Notes under the pieces: generated by a model
Database searches by the model: none
The model's input: only the letters and a program-made list of their open reading frames with translations
Told to the model about the DNA's origin: nothing
Translations under genes and position numbers: made by a program
Source: a virus
Virus record (IMG/VR): IMGVR_UViG_3300050821_000527
Span: 1 to 20,933 of that record
DNA: 20,933 bases
Direction: 5' to 3' (one strand)
Part shown: positions 2,671 through 16,420 of the stretch, piece after piece
Layout: each line of letters opens with the position of its first letter
Position numbering within the stretch: the stretch's first letter is position 1

Positions 2671-3825
2671 ATGAAACACGAACGCTTGGTTCGCGGCCGA
2701 AGCCTTGGCCGCTACCGGACGACCGACATGCTGACCTATGACAGCCGTGGCTACCAGGCCATGGATGAGTCAGGCAATCAGCGTGGCAAGGTCTTCGCTC
2801 AGGCCTACAAGACCCACGACAATCGCACGGTGGATTCCTCCGGTGCGTTCCTGGTGGGTGAGTTGGAGCGTCTTGACTTAACGCTCCACGAGCCGCTGGC
2901 CGCCGTTACCTGGGGCCGCGACATCGACCTTCGCGAAGACGTGACGACTGCTGACGAAGTGAGTTCTTTCACCACTTCGACCTATACCTCTGCTGGTGGC
3001 CTCGGTACCGGCGCAGGCGTCGGCAACTCGAAGTCCTGGATTGGTAAGAACACCAACCAGGTCTCCCGGGTCAGCGTCGATATCGCGAAGATCACCCAGC
3101 CACTGATTCCTTGGGGCAAGGAAATTGCCTACACGGTGTTGGAACTGGAAAGCGCCGCGCGAATCGGCCGCCCGGTGGACGAGCAGAAGTACAAGGCACT
3201 TCAGCTGGCTCACCAGATGGAAATTGACGAAATGGTCTACTACGGAGACACCCCAGGTGCCTTCTATGGCCTCGTCAACTCCAACAACCGCACCACCACT
3301 GATGCGGTCACCAACGTCGCCAACGTTGCCAACGGGGCGCAGAACTCGCCCCTTTGGACCAGCAAGACGCCCGACGAAATTCTTCAGGACTTCAACGAGG
3401 CCCTGACGAGTGCGTGGGCTGCTTCTGGTTGGGCCATCCTGCCGGATAGTGTTCTTCTTCCACCGGCAGATTTCGGCTACATCGCCACCCAGAAGGTGTC
3501 GAGCGCCGGTAACGTGAGCATCCTCAACTACGTGCTGGAGAATAACATCACGGCTCGTCAGGGCGGTGCAACGCTGGACATCAAGTCACTGAAGTGGTGC
3601 CTCGGTACTGGCGTCGGCGGCACAGTGACAGTGGGCGCTGCCGGTCATGACCGGATGGTGGTCTACACAAAGGACAAGGATCGGGTGCGTTACCCGATGA
3701 CACTCCTGGCGAAGACGCCACTCCAATATGACTCGATTTGGCACCGCAGTACTTATTATGGCAGGCTTGGTGTATGCGAGATAGTCTACCCGGAGTTGCT
3801 CTGCTATCGCGACGGATTAAGCTGA
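2671..3825 (+). CDS. Major capsid protein, DUF2184 family
   Basis: A 384-residue protein, the usual length for DUF2184 capsid proteins, which adopt the HK97 fold. Ribosome binding site AAAAGGA lies at 2655-2661. Residues 8-19 carry the RGRSLGRYRTTD motif shared with the cement protein. Family features follow: an N-terminal segment with FLVGELERLDLTLHEPL, a stretch rich in Thr, Ser and Gly around SFTTSTYTSAGGLGTG that may form the extended loop, ITQPLIPWGKEIAYTVLELE, then IGRPVDEQKYKAL and EIDEMVYYGD. The end, with YGRLGVCEIVYPELLCYRDG, also fits the family, so the gene is complete. It forms the icosahedral shell. If the N-terminal motif is a cleavage site, the mature protein would lack about 19 residues. 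Confidence 0.93.
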   Translation: MKHERLVRGRSLGRYRTTDMLTYDSRGYQAMDESGNQRGKVFAQAYKTHDNRTVDSSGAFLVGELERLDLTLHEPLAAVTWGRDIDLREDVTTADEVSSFTTSTYTSAGGLGTGAGVGNSKSWIGKNTNQVSRVSVDIAKITQPLIPWGKEIAYTVLELESAARIGRPVDEQKYKALQLAHQMEIDEMVYYGDTPGAFYGLVNSNNRTTTDAVTNVANVANGAQNSPLWTSKTPDEILQDFNEALTSAWAASGWAILPDSVLLPPADFGYIATQKVSSAGNVSILNYVLENNITARQGGATLDIKSLKWCLGTGVGGTVTVGAAGHDRMVVYTKDKDRVRYPMTLLAKTPLQYDSIWHRSTYYGRLGVCEIVYPELLCYRDGLS

Positions 3826-3960: not shown

Positions 3961-4188
3961 GTGACAGATGACGCGCAGGTAATTTATATCTACGCCCTCT
4001 ACGACGAAACCGACGAGCGACTGCACCCTGATTGGAGACCTTGGGGCGATAAGTGGATTCGCTATATCGGGCGAGCCCATACTCCAGAGAAGCGGTTGAC
4101 TGAGCATCTTCATGACTCAAAAAAGAACAACAAGACCCGAAAGCAGAAGTGGATCAGAAGTGTTCTCAAAGAAAGGAGCGTTACCTAA
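3961..4188 (+). CDS. GIY-YIG homing endonuclease, N-terminal fragment
   Basis: A 75-codon frame starting at GTG 3961 with GGAG at 3950-3953. It encodes the catalytic start of a GIY-YIG nuclease: VIYIYALYDE for the GIY strand, IRYIGRAHTPEKRLTEHL for the YIG strand and the helix with the catalytic Arg, and KQKWIRSVLKE for the following helix. In a whole domain the chain should continue with the strand and the Glu-bearing segment; that segment lies one base over, in the frame that runs to 5086. The gene is therefore broken by a +1 shift at about 4168-4176 (AAAGAAAGG). Without it, translation stops at TAA 4186-4188. It sits alone between the capsid gene and the next phage gene, as free-standing homing endonucleases do, and is richer in Lys and A than its neighbours, suggesting transfer. 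Confidence 0.75.
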   Translation: MTDDAQVIYIYALYDETDERLHPDWRPWGDKWIRYIGRAHTPEKRLTEHLHDSKKNNKTRKQKWIRSVLKERSVT

Positions 4189-5086
4189 GCTGGCTGTTCT
4201 AGAGAAGACTACATTGAAGGAATGGCGAAAGCGCGAGCGGCATTGGATCGCTAAATTTTCTAGGAGACAGTTGACTAACGGCACCCTCGGGGGTGACGGG
4301 CTTGTTGACGCAGATGAAGCGGTACGGAAAGCAATTTCTGAGAAGACCGCGATCAAACTCCAAGGCAATCAGTTTAGAAAGGGTATTGGTTGGATTACTA
4401 ACGGTGACGTTAACCAGTGTTGGCCAAAAACTGAGCCAATGCCTCAAGGGTTTCGTCCTGGACTAACTGGAAGTGCCAAGTATCTTCGCCAAGAAATTGT
4501 AATCCGCCCTCGTGAGATCACTAACGGTTTGGAGACGAAGAAGCTAGGGCCAGATGAGCCTCTACCAGAGGGTTGGTTCTACGGTCGAAGGGGTAAATGC
4601 GGGCCTCTTTCTGAAGAGCATAAGGCGTCAATTGGTAGAAGCAATTCAGGAAAGAAGCGACCCTGGGCCAGAAAAACTGCTAAGCTCGCTCACGCTAAGG
4701 TTAGAGGCTCGCACTGGATAACCAACGGGACAGAGGAACAATTTTTCAAGGGCGAAGATTTACCAGAGGGCTGGCGACGCGGGCGACTTCCCTCTAACAA
4801 ACCGAAGAAGCCCAAGAAGCCGCGCCCAAAGAAGCGTAAGTACAACGGACAGACGAAGGAACAACGCGCGTTCCACAAGCGCATGAAAGTTATGATCACT
4901 GACCTGCGTTGGATAACCAACGGGACCGAGCGCAAACGGATTAACAAGAACGAATCTTTGCCAGAGGGTTGGAGTTACCTTCAGGGAAGCAGCCGCTGGA
5001 TAACGAATGGGGTGCGCAACCAGATGATCCTTCCGGACCAGCCAATCCCAAACGGATGGAGACTGGGAATGACAAAAGGCGTATGA
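4112..5086 (+). CDS. GIY-YIG homing endonuclease, C-terminal part with NUMOD3-like motif and ITNG repeats
   Basis: The frame opens with ATG at 4112, but residues 1-19 merely overlap the upstream fragment in another frame. Meaningful sequence starts at about 4169 with KKGALPKLAVLEKTT. Then comes RERHWIAKF, whose Glu-class segment belongs to the GIY-YIG core, and LTNGTLGGDG, the usual end of that domain. The DNA-binding part follows: PLSEEHKASIGRSNSGKKRP (residues 165-184) is a NUMOD3-like motif, and five repeats of the form W-ITNG, about 12 residues, PEGW, occur at residues 94-118, 135-159, 202-224, 267-289 and 296-319. A Lys/Pro-rich basic linker lies at 230-243. Together with the 3961 fragment this is one ancestral gene of about 375 codons. 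Whether it still makes nuclease depends on frameshifting, or on the shift being a sequence error. The internal AAAGGAG at 4172-4178 could permit reinitiation, but no good start follows. Confidence 0.75.
   Translation: MTQKRTTRPESRSGSEVFSKKGALPKLAVLEKTTLKEWRKRERHWIAKFSRRQLTNGTLGGDGLVDADEAVRKAISEKTAIKLQGNQFRKGIGWITNGDVNQCWPKTEPMPQGFRPGLTGSAKYLRQEIVIRPREITNGLETKKLGPDEPLPEGWFYGRRGKCGPLSEEHKASIGRSNSGKKRPWARKTAKLAHAKVRGSHWITNGTEEQFFKGEDLPEGWRRGRLPSNKPKKPKKPRPKKRKYNGQTKEQRAFHKRMKVMITDLRWITNGTERKRINKNESLPEGWSYLQGSSRWITNGVRNQMILPDQPIPNGWRLGMTKGV
4391..5068 (+). repeat. Five degenerate coding repeats (ITNG...PEGW modules)
   Basis: Five imperfect repeats of about 75 bases lie at 4391-4465, 4514-4588, 4715-4783, 4910-4978 and 4997-5068. 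Each encodes [WE]ITNG, a variable middle of 11-13 residues and a P-x-G-[WF] end, usually PEGW. At DNA level only the 'ggataaccaacgg' cores are well conserved. Repeats 2 and 3 are separated by the NUMOD3-like segment, and 3 and 4 by a basic linker. The pattern matches repeats seen in DNA-binding tails of phage homing endonucleases. Confidence 0.7.
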
Positions 5087-11687: not shown

Positions 11688-12107
11688 ATGCCTGATGATA
11701 ATGGTATCAATAACGGGCAGGCGGCCCCTCCGGCTATTCCTGTCCTGGAAGAGAAGGTCAAGCTTCCCCCGACCGAAGCTGAGCGACACAAGCTTCGGCT
11801 GGACAACGCCGCAAAGGAAAGCGACGACGACCGGACAAAGCGGCGCGCCAAGGAATTTGGCGCGCATCTCGAAGCCCACAAGACCTACGTTGCCGAAGCG
11901 CACGAGAAGTTTCCGGCCCCGCTTCACCGCAATTGGGCGGCGTTCACCGAGGAAGAGAAAAAGAACTGGAACCTTCGCGGCACAGAGATTGCGAGCGCGA
12001 ACCGGGCGTACCACCTCGCGGTCAGGCGCACCTTCGATGAGCACCAGGCCGAGGAACGTCACATCGGGAAGCTTCGTGACGAAGCGGCGCAGAAGGAGAA
12101 CGTCTAA
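11688..12107 (+). CDS. Hypothetical charged helical protein
   Basis: A 139-residue protein with an excellent ribosome binding site (TAAGGAGG, 11673-11680) before ATG at 11688. It is very hydrophilic and largely helical, with a short Pro-rich start, then LPPTEAERHKLRLDNAAKES, KRRAKEFGAHLEAHKTYV, KFPAPLHRNWAAFTEEEKKN, and a C-terminal helix RTFDEHQAEERHIGKL. No membrane segment and no known domain. Long antisense open frames overlap it but lack ribosome binding sites. Its TAA overlaps the sheath ATG by one base (TAATG), so it is co-translated with the sheath and may be a tail assembly accessory protein. Confidence 0.7.
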   Translation: MPDDNGINNGQAAPPAIPVLEEKVKLPPTEAERHKLRLDNAAKESDDDRTKRRAKEFGAHLEAHKTYVAEAHEKFPAPLHRNWAAFTEEEKKNWNLRGTEIASANRAYHLAVRRTFDEHQAEERHIGKLRDEAAQKENV

Positions 12108-13621
12108 TGACCGCTACGCCCCTTCCTATTTCGCGGTTGGTTAATACCCAACTGGTTATCACGCCGACTGGCGTACAGGCCCCGTCGCTAAGCACAGGAC
12201 TTGTCCTCGGTACCAGCACGGTAATCGATACCGTGTCGCGCATGCGGACCTACTTGACGCTAGGTGCGATTGCCACTGACTTCGGCACCAGCGCGGAAGA
12301 ATACCTCGCTGCGGTGTTATGGTTCGGTCAATCCCCTCAACCGCTTTCGATGAACGTCGGTCGTTGGTGCAAGAACGCCGCAGCGGGCAAGCTGATCTGC
12401 GCTCCACTCAGCGCAGCGAATCAGTTGCTTTCGGCTTGGACCGGAATCACTACCGGAAGCTTCAAGGTCGCGGTGGACGGTGGTGCGTCCACTAACGTTC
12501 CGGCCATGAACTTCTCGGCAGCGGTTACGCTCGCGGGCGTGGCGGCTATCATCCAGACTGCTGTTCAAGGTCTGGGCGGTGCCTATGCAGCGGTCACTGT
12601 CGTCTACAACGCGGTCTACACCCGTTTCGAGTTTACGTCTGGAACCACGGGCGCTACGTCGGCAATTTCGTTCATGCTGGCTGGTACGACCGGCGTTGAC
12701 ATCTCGGCTCAGGTAGGCGGCCTAGCGGCCTCCAATGGGGCCTATGTTGCGAATGGTGTCGCAGCCGAATCTGCGCTCGCGGCAGTTGTGTTATTCGATA
12801 CGCAGTTCGGGGGTCAGTGGTATAATGTTATCATTCCCGACGCGGTGGACACAGACACGGTTGCGATTGCGCCTTACATCGATGGCGCTAGTACCCCGCA
12901 TTTCCAATGGGTCACAACCAACGAAGTGCAGGTGCTTTCGACCGGCGATATCACGCACATTGGGTATCTGCTCCAGCAACTTCAATCCCAGCACACGGCG
13001 TGGCAGTATTCGTCCACGAACCTCTATGCGGCCTGGAGTATGGCGGCTCGTATTGCAACTACCAACTACGCTGGCAGCCTGACTTGCATCAGCCTGATGT
13101 ACAAGTCAGAGCCGGGCGTTATCCCTGAGTTGCTGACCGGCTCTCAGGCCAGCGCCATCGATAGCTACAATGGCAACGTCTACGTTAGCTATCAGTTTGG
13201 AACGGGCACGCCGATTATCGAACAAGGCATCTGTCCCTCGGGACAGTTCATCGATACGATCATCGGAGCCGACGCGCTTCGGTTGCAGATCATGTCGAAT
13301 GTCTTTGGCATCCTGCAAGGCACGCCGACCAAGATTCCGCAGACTGATCCAGGGGTCAACACTATCAAGACTGGTGTTGAGGGAGCCTGCGCGCAGTTTG
13401 TCGTCAACGGCTTCCTGGCTCCCGGGGTTTGGACTGGGAACGCCTTCGGGCAACTTACAGCGGGCCAGTTCCTGGACAAGGGCTACTACATCTATGCCCA
13501 GCCGATTGCGAACCAGGCGCAATCCGCCCGTGCTGCACGCATCTGCCCGCCGATCCAAACGGCTGCAAAATGCGCGGGTGCCATCGACACTGTTTTGAAT
13601 ACACTCTTCGTCAACATTTGA
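12107..13621 (+). CDS. Contractile tail sheath protein, DUF3383 family
   Basis: A 504-residue protein with AAGGAGA (12093-12099) upstream of ATG 12107. The DUF3383 pattern spans the whole length: ITPTGVQAPSLSTGLVLGTS, TDFGTSAEEYLAAVLWFGQSP, the Gly/Ala/Thr-rich insertion domain in the middle, and FDTQFGGQWYNVIIPD. The end is highly characteristic: FGTGTPIIEQGICPSGQFID, KIPQTDPGVNTIK, VNGFLAPGVWTG, KGYYIYAQPIANQAQSARAA and KCAGAIDTVLNTLFVNI. This protein polymerises around the tube and contracts at infection; its presence makes the phage myovirus-like. Confidence 0.92.
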   Translation: MTATPLPISRLVNTQLVITPTGVQAPSLSTGLVLGTSTVIDTVSRMRTYLTLGAIATDFGTSAEEYLAAVLWFGQSPQPLSMNVGRWCKNAAAGKLICAPLSAANQLLSAWTGITTGSFKVAVDGGASTNVPAMNFSAAVTLAGVAAIIQTAVQGLGGAYAAVTVVYNAVYTRFEFTSGTTGATSAISFMLAGTTGVDISAQVGGLAASNGAYVANGVAAESALAAVVLFDTQFGGQWYNVIIPDAVDTDTVAIAPYIDGASTPHFQWVTTNEVQVLSTGDITHIGYLLQQLQSQHTAWQYSSTNLYAAWSMAARIATTNYAGSLTCISLMYKSEPGVIPELLTGSQASAIDSYNGNVYVSYQFGTGTPIIEQGICPSGQFIDTIIGADALRLQIMSNVFGILQGTPTKIPQTDPGVNTIKTGVEGACAQFVVNGFLAPGVWTGNAFGQLTAGQFLDKGYYIYAQPIANQAQSARAARICPPIQTAAKCAGAIDTVLNTLFVNI

Positions 13622-13634
13622 GAGGGCCTGAACT

Positions 13635-14093
13635 ATGGGTGCTTATTCGTTTTTGTCAGTTCAGGCCAGTATTCTCGGTCCAGGACTGAATGCTCAAATC
13701 GGCTCTTCGGCGGGCTCCGCCAAAGAGGGTATCTCCGTCGAAATGGAAGAAGACAAGACGACGGTTACAACCGGGGCCGATGGCAGTATCATGACATCGC
13801 TACGGGCGTCGATGACTGGGCGGGTCATTGTGCGGCTTCTCAAGACCTCGCCGATCAATGCGGTCCTGATGAATGGTCTTAACTTTCAGCGCATCAGCGC
13901 TGCGAATTGGGGCCAGAACGTTATCGTAGTCAGTGACACGGCCCGTGGCGATGTGGTGTCCGGACGCCAGATGTCCTTTGTTCGTTTCCCGAACAACAGC
14001 TGGGCTGAGGAAGGCAACGTGATCGAATGGTCCTACGTCGGAATCGTCAACGAGTGGATGGGGGCCGGTATCCCCGATCTCACCAATCCTTGA
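13635..14093 (+). CDS. Tail tube protein, DUF3277 family
   Basis: A 152-residue protein, the family's normal length; AGAGGG (13621-13626) precedes ATG 13635 at eight bases. Family landmarks are YSFLSVQASILGPGLNAQIG, KEGISVEMEEDKTTVTTGAD, GSIMTSLRASMTGRVIVRLL followed by KTSPINAVLM, NWGQNVIVVSD and a C-terminal strand with GIVNEWMG. It forms the inner tube through which DNA passes. It directly follows the sheath, as usual in contractile-tail phages. Its TGA overlaps a TTG that begins the next small frame. Confidence 0.92.
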   Translation: MGAYSFLSVQASILGPGLNAQIGSSAGSAKEGISVEMEEDKTTVTTGADGSIMTSLRASMTGRVIVRLLKTSPINAVLMNGLNFQRISAANWGQNVIVVSDTARGDVVSGRQMSFVRFPNNSWAEEGNVIEWSYVGIVNEWMGAGIPDLTNP

Positions 14094-14278
14094 GCCGTGA
14101 GGCTGAGTTAGCCGCAACGTTGAAGGTCGCGGCTGCCGAACACTTCGGTGAAATGGCTTCTGAGTTCCTACTAGGCGTAATAGACGAAAGGGAGATGGAG
14201 CAAGACTACGTTGTCTACACCAACCTTGAATTTTTTGAGAACTTCGAAACCCCCAACCATAACCGGAAATTACAATGA
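14090..14278 (+). CDS. Hypothetical small acidic protein (TTG start)
   Basis: A frame in the 181-base gap between tube and chaperone genes. It begins with TTG 14090-14092 overlapping the tube's TGA (TTGA) and ends with TGA 14276-14278 overlapping the chaperone's ATG (ATGA), which fits a coupled operon gene. The 62-residue product is helical then acidic: SREAELAATLKVAAAEHFGE, ASEFLLGVIDEREMEQDYVV and NLEFFENFETPNHNRKLQ. ATG at 14152 would give a 42-residue form; neither start has a strong ribosome binding site. No family is recognised. Confidence 0.5.
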   Translation: MSREAELAATLKVAAAEHFGEMASEFLLGVIDEREMEQDYVVYTNLEFFENFETPNHNRKLQ

Positions 14279-14748
14279 CGGATGCCCTCGAAACTACAGT
14301 CCAGATTGAATCGAAGACCTACGCCGTAGGACGCCTTTCAGCGTTTGACCAGATGCACTTGATTGCCGATGCGCGAAGTATTCTCACAGGCCTCGCGCTG
14401 CTTAAGCGCGACCGTCCGAAGGAGATGGATGACCGCAGCTACCTCTCAACTGTGGGAATGATTACCTCTTCACTAGGGGGCTTACAACCGGAAACTCGTG
14501 AGCGTATCTGGAACATGTGTCTGGGCGTTGTTAAGCAGCGAGGAGCGGTGGGTTTTCAGCCAGTGTTGGCTTCAGCCGGTCAGATGCAATTCGCGGACAT
14601 GGACATCCACACAATCACCAAGCTGATCTACGCGGTCTTCGAGCACAATAAGCTACTCGATTTTTTCTCCGAAGGCCTGTCCGGTTCGGACGGGCCGAAG
14701 ACAACCGAAAGCAATGGGCAGGGCTCGATGGAGGAGAAGACTGGTTGA
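14275..14748 (+). CDS. Tail assembly chaperone (upstream product)
   Basis: A 157-residue protein with ATGA overlap at its start. It sits exactly where tail assembly chaperones lie, between tube and tape measure. The chain has a short beta start (TVQIESKTYAVGRLSAFDQM), then helices (HLIADARSILTGLALLKRD, TVGMITSSLGGLQPETRERI), a strand-turn with VGFQPVLASAGQMQF, and the helix DIHTITKLIYAVFEHNKLLD. The last 25 residues are Ser/Gly-rich and disordered. The slippery heptamer T TTT TTC at 14661-14667 overlaps codons 129-131, just where the folded part ends, so a fraction of ribosomes should make the longer product to 14882. Chaperones of this type bind the tape measure and recruit tube subunits. 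They are not kept in the virion. Confidence 0.8.
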   Translation: MTDALETTVQIESKTYAVGRLSAFDQMHLIADARSILTGLALLKRDRPKEMDDRSYLSTVGMITSSLGGLQPETRERIWNMCLGVVKQRGAVGFQPVLASAGQMQFADMDIHTITKLIYAVFEHNKLLDFFSEGLSGSDGPKTTESNGQGSMEEKTG

Positions 14749-14882
14749 TGGCCCCGGTGGGCCGTGGCTATTGTAAGCTGGAAAGCTTGCTTGATGGTAC
14801 AATTACGCTCTACGATCTAGCGATAGCCAACGATCACATTGCGGTGGTTGCTGAGAACCAGCGGCGGGCTCAAGAGAAATGA
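14275..14882 (+). CDS. Tail assembly chaperone, predicted -1 frameshift product
   Basis: Predicted join of 14275-14667 with 14667-14882: zero frame to the TTC codon at 14665-14667, slip back one base, then continue from CTC at 14667. This gives 202 residues: the first 131 of the upstream product plus 71 in the -1 frame. The -1 frame is open from 14652 (TAA at 14649-14651) to TGA 14880-14882. The junction segment includes GGEDWL just before MAPVGRGYCKLESLLDG, so the downstream domain may extend upstream of its own ATG, favouring frameshifting over independent initiation. The counterpart in lambda is the G-T product. Inference from sequence; frequency unknown. Confidence 0.65.
14661..14667 (+). 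promoter_or_regulatory. Programmed -1 ribosomal frameshift site (T TTT TTC)
   Basis: Zero-frame codons are GAT TTT TTC TCC, so the heptamer T TTT TTC has the X XXY YYZ phase needed for simultaneous -1 slippage of both tRNAs. It lies at the end of the folded part of the chaperone and inside the window where the -1 frame is open. A GC-rich stretch follows within ten bases (GGCCTGTCCGG and CGGGCCG), which may fold as a stimulator. Confidence 0.7.
14748..14882 (+). CDS. Downstream tail assembly chaperone ORF (44 residues)
   Basis: ATG 14748 overlaps the chaperone's TGA (TGATG) and the frame ends at TGA 14880-14882, overlapping the tape-measure ATG (ATGA). The product (GRGYCKLESLLDGTITLYDL, then AIANDHIAVVAENQRRAQEK) fits a short phage family with the pattern 'G-x-C/W...ESL-x-DG-x-[IL]-x-L-x-D[IL]A...N...EN-x-x-R', found between chaperone and tape-measure genes. 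It could be made alone by termination-reinitiation or fused by the -1 frameshift at 14661. Both routes may work. Confidence 0.65.
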   Translation: MAPVGRGYCKLESLLDGTITLYDLAIANDHIAVVAENQRRAQEK

Positions 14883-16420
14883 CTCTACAAGAATATTTGG
14901 TCCAACTCGGCTGGAAAATTGACGAACCGTCCATGAAACGGTTTCTCGGTGTTCTCGCCCATACTGGCGCCAAGACTGCGGAGCTAGGTGCTACAGCCGT
15001 AGAGACGGCTGGTGCTATCGAGGCGATGGTTACCCGCGTCGCGCGACAGTACGAGAGCTTGTACTACATGTCGCAGCGCACGAGTCAAAGTGTGCGCTAT
15101 ATCCAGTCTACGCAATTCGCGTTTAAACAGATAGGTCTTAGCGCCGACGAAGCCAATGCCTCGATTGAGGGTATCGCCACGACGTTGCGTACCCAGCCCT
15201 GGCTGAAGGCGATCTTTGGCGGCGCGAATACTCCACAGGGTGTTGCTGACCGGCTCGGCAAGAGCGGGATGCCCTACTTCTTACAGGCCCGGTTTGCCGA
15301 GATGATCGGCATGGACGAAAAGACGCTCTTTCACCTTCAGAAGTTCGGAGCCGTTGAGCGACAGGCTCAGGAAGATTTTGTCCGGCGTCAGAAGGCAGCT
15401 GGAATTGACCCTGAAGCGCTGGCTGGCAAATCGGTTATTCTTGGACGGGCGATTAACAGCCTAGAGAGTGTCCTGGAGATATTCGGCGAGCGTATGGCGC
15501 TTGACTTCATCGACCCGGTCACTCATGGCGTTGAGCGCCTGACCGCCTTTATCGATTGGCTGACTAAGGCCGACGTGGCTACGAACGGTTGGATTAGCAC
15601 TCTCGGTACGCTCGCGGGGACGGTAGGGGCCAGCGCGATCCTCACCAAGATTTTTGGAAGGGTCCTAGGCGGCGGAGCGGGGACCGCTAGCGCGGCGGGC
15701 GGTATCGGGGCAGGCGGCCTAGCCTTTCCCCTACTAGCCGCCGGAGGGGCTGTTTACGGGGCTCACGCGGCTGTAGGTAAGTACGGCGCGAGCGCGATAC
15801 CCTTCCTAGGGGGCACGCCCGGTAAGGCAGCGACCGACCGGGCTAAGCAGGCAGCCGATTTCTTTGAGGCAGCCGGGTTTCCCCGTAGTTCGGCTCAGGG
15901 CATCGCTGCGGGCCTCTTTAGTGAAAGCGGTCTTGACCCGAACAATACCAATCCAACGAGCGGTGCAACTGGAATTGCGCAATGGCTCACCAAGTCGCGC
16001 AAGGACGCTATCGAGAAGCGCTTCGGACAAAAGATCGAAGGCTCGTCTTTCGAGGACCAGCTAAAGTACGTCCTTTGGGAGCTTACTCAGGGCGGCGAGA
16101 CAGAAGCGGGCAAGAAGCTTTATCAGCCGGGCATGAGTAACAAGGAAGCGGCCGGAACGTTCATACATCTTTTTGAGAGGCCAGGGGCAGCGGGTGAGAT
16201 GTCCGATATGTCACGGGCTGGGCCAATGGCTGATACCTTGTCCAACCTAGCTGACAAAGGTCAAAAAGGTGGCGACACAACGCACATCAATTTGAACAGT
16301 AAAACCACGGTCAACGTTCCACCCGGAGCCGATGTCATGTCTACGGCGAAAGCCTACGGGGACGCCCACAACATGGCTAACGAGAACCTGATTAGGAACA
16401 TCCAAGGCGTGGTACGATGA
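14879..16420 (+). CDS. Tape measure protein with C-terminal phage tail lysozyme domain
   Basis: A 513-residue protein starting in an ATGA overlap. Residues 1 to about 235 are mostly helical, with MTLQEYLVQLGWKIDEPSMK and RQYESLYYMSQRTSQSVRYI in the usual tape-measure start. Residues 238-300 form a hydrophobic Gly/Ala-rich stretch that could insert in a membrane on injection. Residues about 323-440 match the phage tail lysozyme domain: AADFFEAAGFPRSSAQGIAA, GLFSESGLDPNNTNPTSG with the probable catalytic Glu349, GIAQWLTKSRKDAIEKRFG, and FERPG (432-436). The C-terminal end is polar. It sets tail length during assembly, then leaves with the DNA and digests peptidoglycan. At the usual rule of about 0.15 nm per residue the tail would be only about 75 nm, short for a contractile tail. 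Confidence 0.88.
   Translation: MTLQEYLVQLGWKIDEPSMKRFLGVLAHTGAKTAELGATAVETAGAIEAMVTRVARQYESLYYMSQRTSQSVRYIQSTQFAFKQIGLSADEANASIEGIATTLRTQPWLKAIFGGANTPQGVADRLGKSGMPYFLQARFAEMIGMDEKTLFHLQKFGAVERQAQEDFVRRQKAAGIDPEALAGKSVILGRAINSLESVLEIFGERMALDFIDPVTHGVERLTAFIDWLTKADVATNGWISTLGTLAGTVGASAILTKIFGRVLGGGAGTASAAGGIGAGGLAFPLLAAGGAVYGAHAAVGKYGASAIPFLGGTPGKAATDRAKQAADFFEAAGFPRSSAQGIAAGLFSESGLDPNNTNPTSGATGIAQWLTKSRKDAIEKRFGQKIEGSSFEDQLKYVLWELTQGGETEAGKKLYQPGMSNKEAAGTFIHLFERPGAAGEMSDMSRAGPMADTLSNLADKGQKGGDTTHINLNSKTTVNVPPGADVMSTAKAYGDAHNMANENLIRNIQGVVR

Follow-up and report, generated by a model that had tools for sequence, protein, structure and literature searches.

A probable programmed -1 ribosomal frameshift into the DUF6889 domain in the tail assembly chaperone gene of a contractile-tailed phage

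A 20,933-bp virus record (IMG/VR record IMGVR_UViG_3300050821_000527, positions 1 to 20,933; this whole stretch is called the window here) carries structural genes of a contractile-tailed phage, and the 3′ part of its tail assembly chaperone gene is overlapped by an open frame in the -1 register. This raises the question of whether a programmed -1 ribosomal frameshift joins the second frame to the chaperone, as had been proposed from the letters of the window alone (the sequence-only reading), or whether the downstream domain is translated separately. We conclude, from comparative sequence analysis, that the chaperone gene very probably undergoes programmed -1 frameshifting. The features concerned are the following:

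14275..14748, plus strand: tail assembly chaperone, 0-frame product, 157 amino acids (PF21822 Phage_TAC_15, E-value 1.7e-10; phrog_1688, E-value 3.4e-12).
14661..14667, plus strand: slippery heptamer U UUU UUC, in phase; the homologous position keeps heptamers family-wide.
14668..14673, plus strand: 6-nt spacer UCCGAA, between heptamer and hairpin.
14674..14696, plus strand: candidate stimulatory hairpin GGCCUGUCCG-GUU-CGGACGGGCC, 10 bp (from local folding, synonymous shuffles and near relatives).
14652..14882, plus strand: open region of the -1 frame, encoding 3′ of the heptamer the C-terminal fusion extension (DUF6889 PF21829, E-value 6.5e-12; phrog_4364, E-value 1.8e-16).
14748..14882, plus strand: 44-codon open reading frame (ORF) whose own ATG overlaps the stop of the chaperone, a possible second route to the domain (AGGAG at 14732-14736; not conserved in the family).

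The chaperone is read as GAT (14659) TTT TTC TCC, which places T TTT TTC in the X XXY YYZ phase, so that the codon register bears out the phase claimed in the sequence-only reading. Translation likewise confirmed that the -1 frame runs without a stop from 14652 up to the TGA at 14880-14882, giving ATRFFLRRPVRFGRAEDNRKQWAGLDGGEDWLMAPVGRGY...AQEK, and the overlaps TGATG (14746-14750) and ATGA (14879-14882) are present as had been described. Both frames match their Pfam families above the curated cut-offs (Phage_TAC_15, 41.9 bits for a cut-off of 22; DUF6889, 45.4 bits for a cut-off of 23.9). The match to phrog_4364 starts at Glu29 of the -1 frame, upstream of the ATG and within the GEDWL stretch, which is conserved in homologues; the sequence-only reading had pointed to these residues (GGEDWL) as plausible. 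By itself, the heptamer is weak evidence, because about 32% of synonymous-shuffled genes carry an in-phase one per 80 nt, and a second in-phase heptamer in the window, GGGTTTT at 14550, is irrelevant as it falls where the -1 frame is closed.

The family was surveyed through loci collected from public phage records and IMG/VR, the relatives being sought with the sheath and the -1 domain because the window chaperone alone, used as a protein query against viral contigs, found none; bacterial genomes, scanned with the sheath alignment, yielded no relatives either. A tblastn search with the -1 frame matched 30 phage records, and in 19 of these the alignment spans 80% or more of the query and includes the residues encoded upstream of the ATG. 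A domain-core profile detected DUF6889 in 171 of 180 loci, and in 169 of these 171 the chaperone ORF is so placed that a -1 shift out of its frame would enter the domain. The two exceptions are L083, which is cut by the contig end, and L034 (898-1752), where chaperone and DUF6889 are encoded by a single in-frame ORF matched by both Pfam models; this may be a true fusion or an artefact of assembly. L034 is without the heptamer (CCG TTT TTC), and its gene is placed after, not before, the lysozyme/tape-measure-like ORF. These comparisons indicate that, in nearly every case examined, DUF6889 is what a -1 frameshift would add to the tail chaperone of phages with a DUF3383 sheath.

Removal of near-duplicates left 121 loci, and the -1 frame is open at the site in all 121. 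An in-phase heptamer lies 45-90 nt upstream of the domain core in 104 of them, compared to 32 and 2 for the other two phases; the figure of 104 is a lower bound, as L103 and L104 fall just beyond this range yet carry TTTTTTC. The commonest heptamers are TTTTTTT, TTTTTTC and CCCTTTT, together with the run GGGAAATTTTTTG. When synonymous codons were shuffled, an in-phase heptamer was expected in 34.8 of 109 genes, whereas 98 of 109 have one, a frequency far beyond chance, and the -1 frame is open from 72 nt upstream in 89 genes compared to 57.6 expected. The sequence-only reading had named homologues with no heptamer and with stop codons in the -1 frame as what would tell against a shift; the opposite was found, with the heptamer kept at the same place and the -1 frame open.

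Between the heptamer and the domain, the homologues share the -1 residues FFxRxP... GEDWL, and GKFFxRxP is conserved in the -1 frame even between phages with 28-42% identity. Within the near clade, substitutions at chaperone codon positions 3/1/2 number 198/145/72 before the heptamer and 68/71/129 after it, where position 2 corresponds to third positions in the -1 frame; for the same bases after the heptamer, the mean identity is 63% in the -1 frame compared to 47% in the chaperone frame. The same switch is seen family-wide, and such a shifted pattern between heptamer and ATG is the mark expected of a translated -1 frame.

A further element, absent from the sequence-only account, is the predicted hairpin, which begins 6 nt past the heptamer, at the distance usual for -1 stimulators. 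No other 40-nt local fold within 14275-14880 is as stable, and the hairpin region folds with -19.9 kcal/mol in 45 nt, compared to a mean of -11.7 for synonymous shuffles, only 1 in 300 of which was equally stable. An equivalent hairpin stands at the same place in five near relatives, for which the shuffles folding as stably, per 300, numbered 8 (L169), 2 (L154), 1 (L153), 5 (L152) and 20 (L150). In the alignment, 91.7% of the stem cells are paired, compared to 14-58% with a slid partner strand. When such a hairpin is looked for family-wide, the 45 nt that follow the heptamer have a median z of only -0.4, and therefore the strong hairpin belongs to the clade of the window and some others rather than to the whole family.

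Some observations weigh against a programmed frameshift or against the part given here to the hairpin. A strict XXXYYYZ heptamer is missing in 15-17 of the 121 loci, of which those inspected mostly keep a relaxed one, e.g., G CCT TTT, and no clear Shine-Dalgarno-like stimulator was found just upstream of the heptamer in the window. Covariation among five distinct hairpin sequences came to one pair changed on both sides, no better than column shuffles, a comparison made uninformative by the likeness of the five aligned sequences; the stem conservation could in part be an effect of coding in two frames. As a separate observation, Edwardsiella phage vB_EpM_ZHS (L018:1498-2177) has the -1 relation with no strict heptamer (GGG GAT TTT ATG), and its downstream gene is annotated separately; a relaxed site, or initiation of its own for the downstream gene, may serve here.

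The domain could also be reached in other ways. Translation of the DUF6889 ORF by re-initiation at TGATG, instead of or besides the frameshift, is unlikely in our view. The ATG is retained in near relatives, it lies 11 nt downstream of the Shine-Dalgarno-like AGGAG in the window, where it overlaps the chaperone stop, and some GenBank records annotate a separate coding sequence for the domain; however, only 28 of the 121 loci combine such a motif with an ATG close to where the domain begins, only 15 show the stop/ATG overlap, and the residue at the Met position is most often Leu (63, compared to 48 Met). Re-initiation would, moreover, leave the heptamers unexplained, as well as the -1-frame conservation between heptamer and ATG, since starting at the ATG would not yield -1-frame selection upstream of it. 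The AGGAG makes it possible as an extra route in the window phage. The earlier proposal of two routes to the same domain finds weak support in the ATG and AGGAG of the window, but lack of conservation of these signals speaks against the second route. That both are used in the clade of the window, giving a fusion by frameshift and a free 44-amino-acid protein by TGATG, the free form having its own role in tail assembly, seems improbable.

Slippage of the RNA polymerase on the T run, yielding mRNAs with an altered number of U that are read in the new frame, is very improbable. The run has six T in the window and seven in many relatives, and six T are short for efficient polymerase slippage. This explanation fits poorly because several relatives carry CCCTTTT, CCCTTTC or GGGAAAT at the same place, which suits tandem tRNA slippage rather than a transcriptional event, and it has no need of the phase bias described above. 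That the heptamer and the open frame are both accidental, and overlie a small gene with no relation to the chaperone, is hardly credible: about a third of such genes would be expected to have a heptamer, but its positional conservation, the -1 frame open in every non-redundant locus, the selection pattern in that frame and the domain match refute it. In summary, the conserved position of the heptamer, the open -1 frame with its conserved residues and the downstream hairpin predicted in this analysis support the programmed -1 frameshift that had been proposed for the chaperone gene.

The phase, the open frame, the conservation and the predicted hairpin are read from the sequences; that ribosomes slip, how often they would do so and what each product may do is inferred. 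The majority of ribosomes would terminate at the TGA at 14746-14748, yielding the 157-amino-acid chaperone, while a minority, delayed by the hairpin, would step back by one nucleotide at U UUU UUC through tandem slippage of two Phe tRNAs, which would move from UUU-UUC to UUU-UUU and both re-pair in the -1 frame. The shifted ribosomes would read 71 more codons, giving a minority fusion of about 202 amino acids ending in DUF6889. If the two products divide their labour as lambda gpG and gpGT do, the tape measure protein would be coated by the chaperone part and the tube protein recruited by the -1 domain.

The lambda heptamer, GGGAAAG, differs from the TTTTTTC of the window, and the E/E′ pair of phage P2 offers a contractile tail with a -1 shift on the T-run heptamer TTTTTTG in the chaperone gene. 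Lambda, unlike the phage of the window, is a siphophage without a sheath. It makes a short and a long product, of which the short one coats the tape measure and the long one brings in the tube protein through its -1 domain (PMC5009743). Conservation of programmed -1 frameshifting in the tail chaperone is widespread among phages with long tails (PMC5009743), and a programmed translational frameshift was reported, from annotation, for the chaperone of Burkholderia phage Magia (PMC7883833), a member of our survey. Magia (PQC04_gp15, gp16) resembles the window in the order of sheath, tube, chaperone and tape measure, in the -1 relation, in a homologous DUF6889-type extension (about 53% identity in the -1 frame to the window domain) and in a heptamer at the homologous place; it differs in that this heptamer is CCCTTTT and in that its shift was predicted from annotation. 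The probable frameshift of the window is thus of an already known kind, the lambda G/GT type, because it has been reported widely in tail chaperones and, for Magia, in the same gene family.

The gene order in the window is sheath, probable tube, small ORF, chaperone, DUF6889 frame and tape measure, so that the chaperone gene sits between the tube/sheath genes and the tape measure gene, as in the lambda G/GT-type class. The neighbouring genes are:

12107..13621, plus strand: tail sheath, DUF3383 (PF11863; phrog_205 tail sheath).
13635..14093, plus strand: probable tail tube protein, KPP10_Orf10 family (PF11681 KPP10_Orf10, E-value 5.6e-43).
14879..16420, plus strand: tail tape measure protein, the next gene (phrog_9570 and phrog_12506, tail length tape measure; PF18013 Phage_lysozyme2).

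The role of the probable tube protein is assigned from gene order, and the relatives' genes at this position carry the annotation DUF3277 family. Between this gene and the chaperone, a small frame at 14093-14278 (SREAELAATLKVAAAEHFGEMASEFLLGVIDEREMEQDYVVYTNLEFFENFETPNHNRKLQ) had no match in Pfam or PHROG, and a PDB search with the chaperone gave no structure match. Elsewhere in the window, directly 3′ of the major capsid gene (2671-3825), an ORF with a GIY-YIG domain (3961-4188; PF01541, E-value 2.9e-6) continues in a different frame as a long ORF (4112-5086) in which ITNG...P.GW motifs recur, and 3961-5086 has the look of a homing endonuclease gene interrupted by a change of frame.

DUF6889 is listed in Pfam, as is phrog_4364 in PHROG, as being of unknown function, and no mention of DUF6889 by name was found in the literature searched. 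The sole PDB match to the profile of the -1 domain, a 25-residue stretch of a designed helix bundle, was judged spurious. What this analysis adds is the predicted hairpin conserved in the clade and the evidence for DUF6889 as a frameshift extension, which is useful for annotation; most of the public records examined miss the fusion or call the domain a stray hypothetical gene. At a single homologous site, members of the family carry TTTTTTN, CCCTTTY or GGGAAAT, some followed by a hairpin and some not, and they provide a natural series on the requirements of a -1 site.
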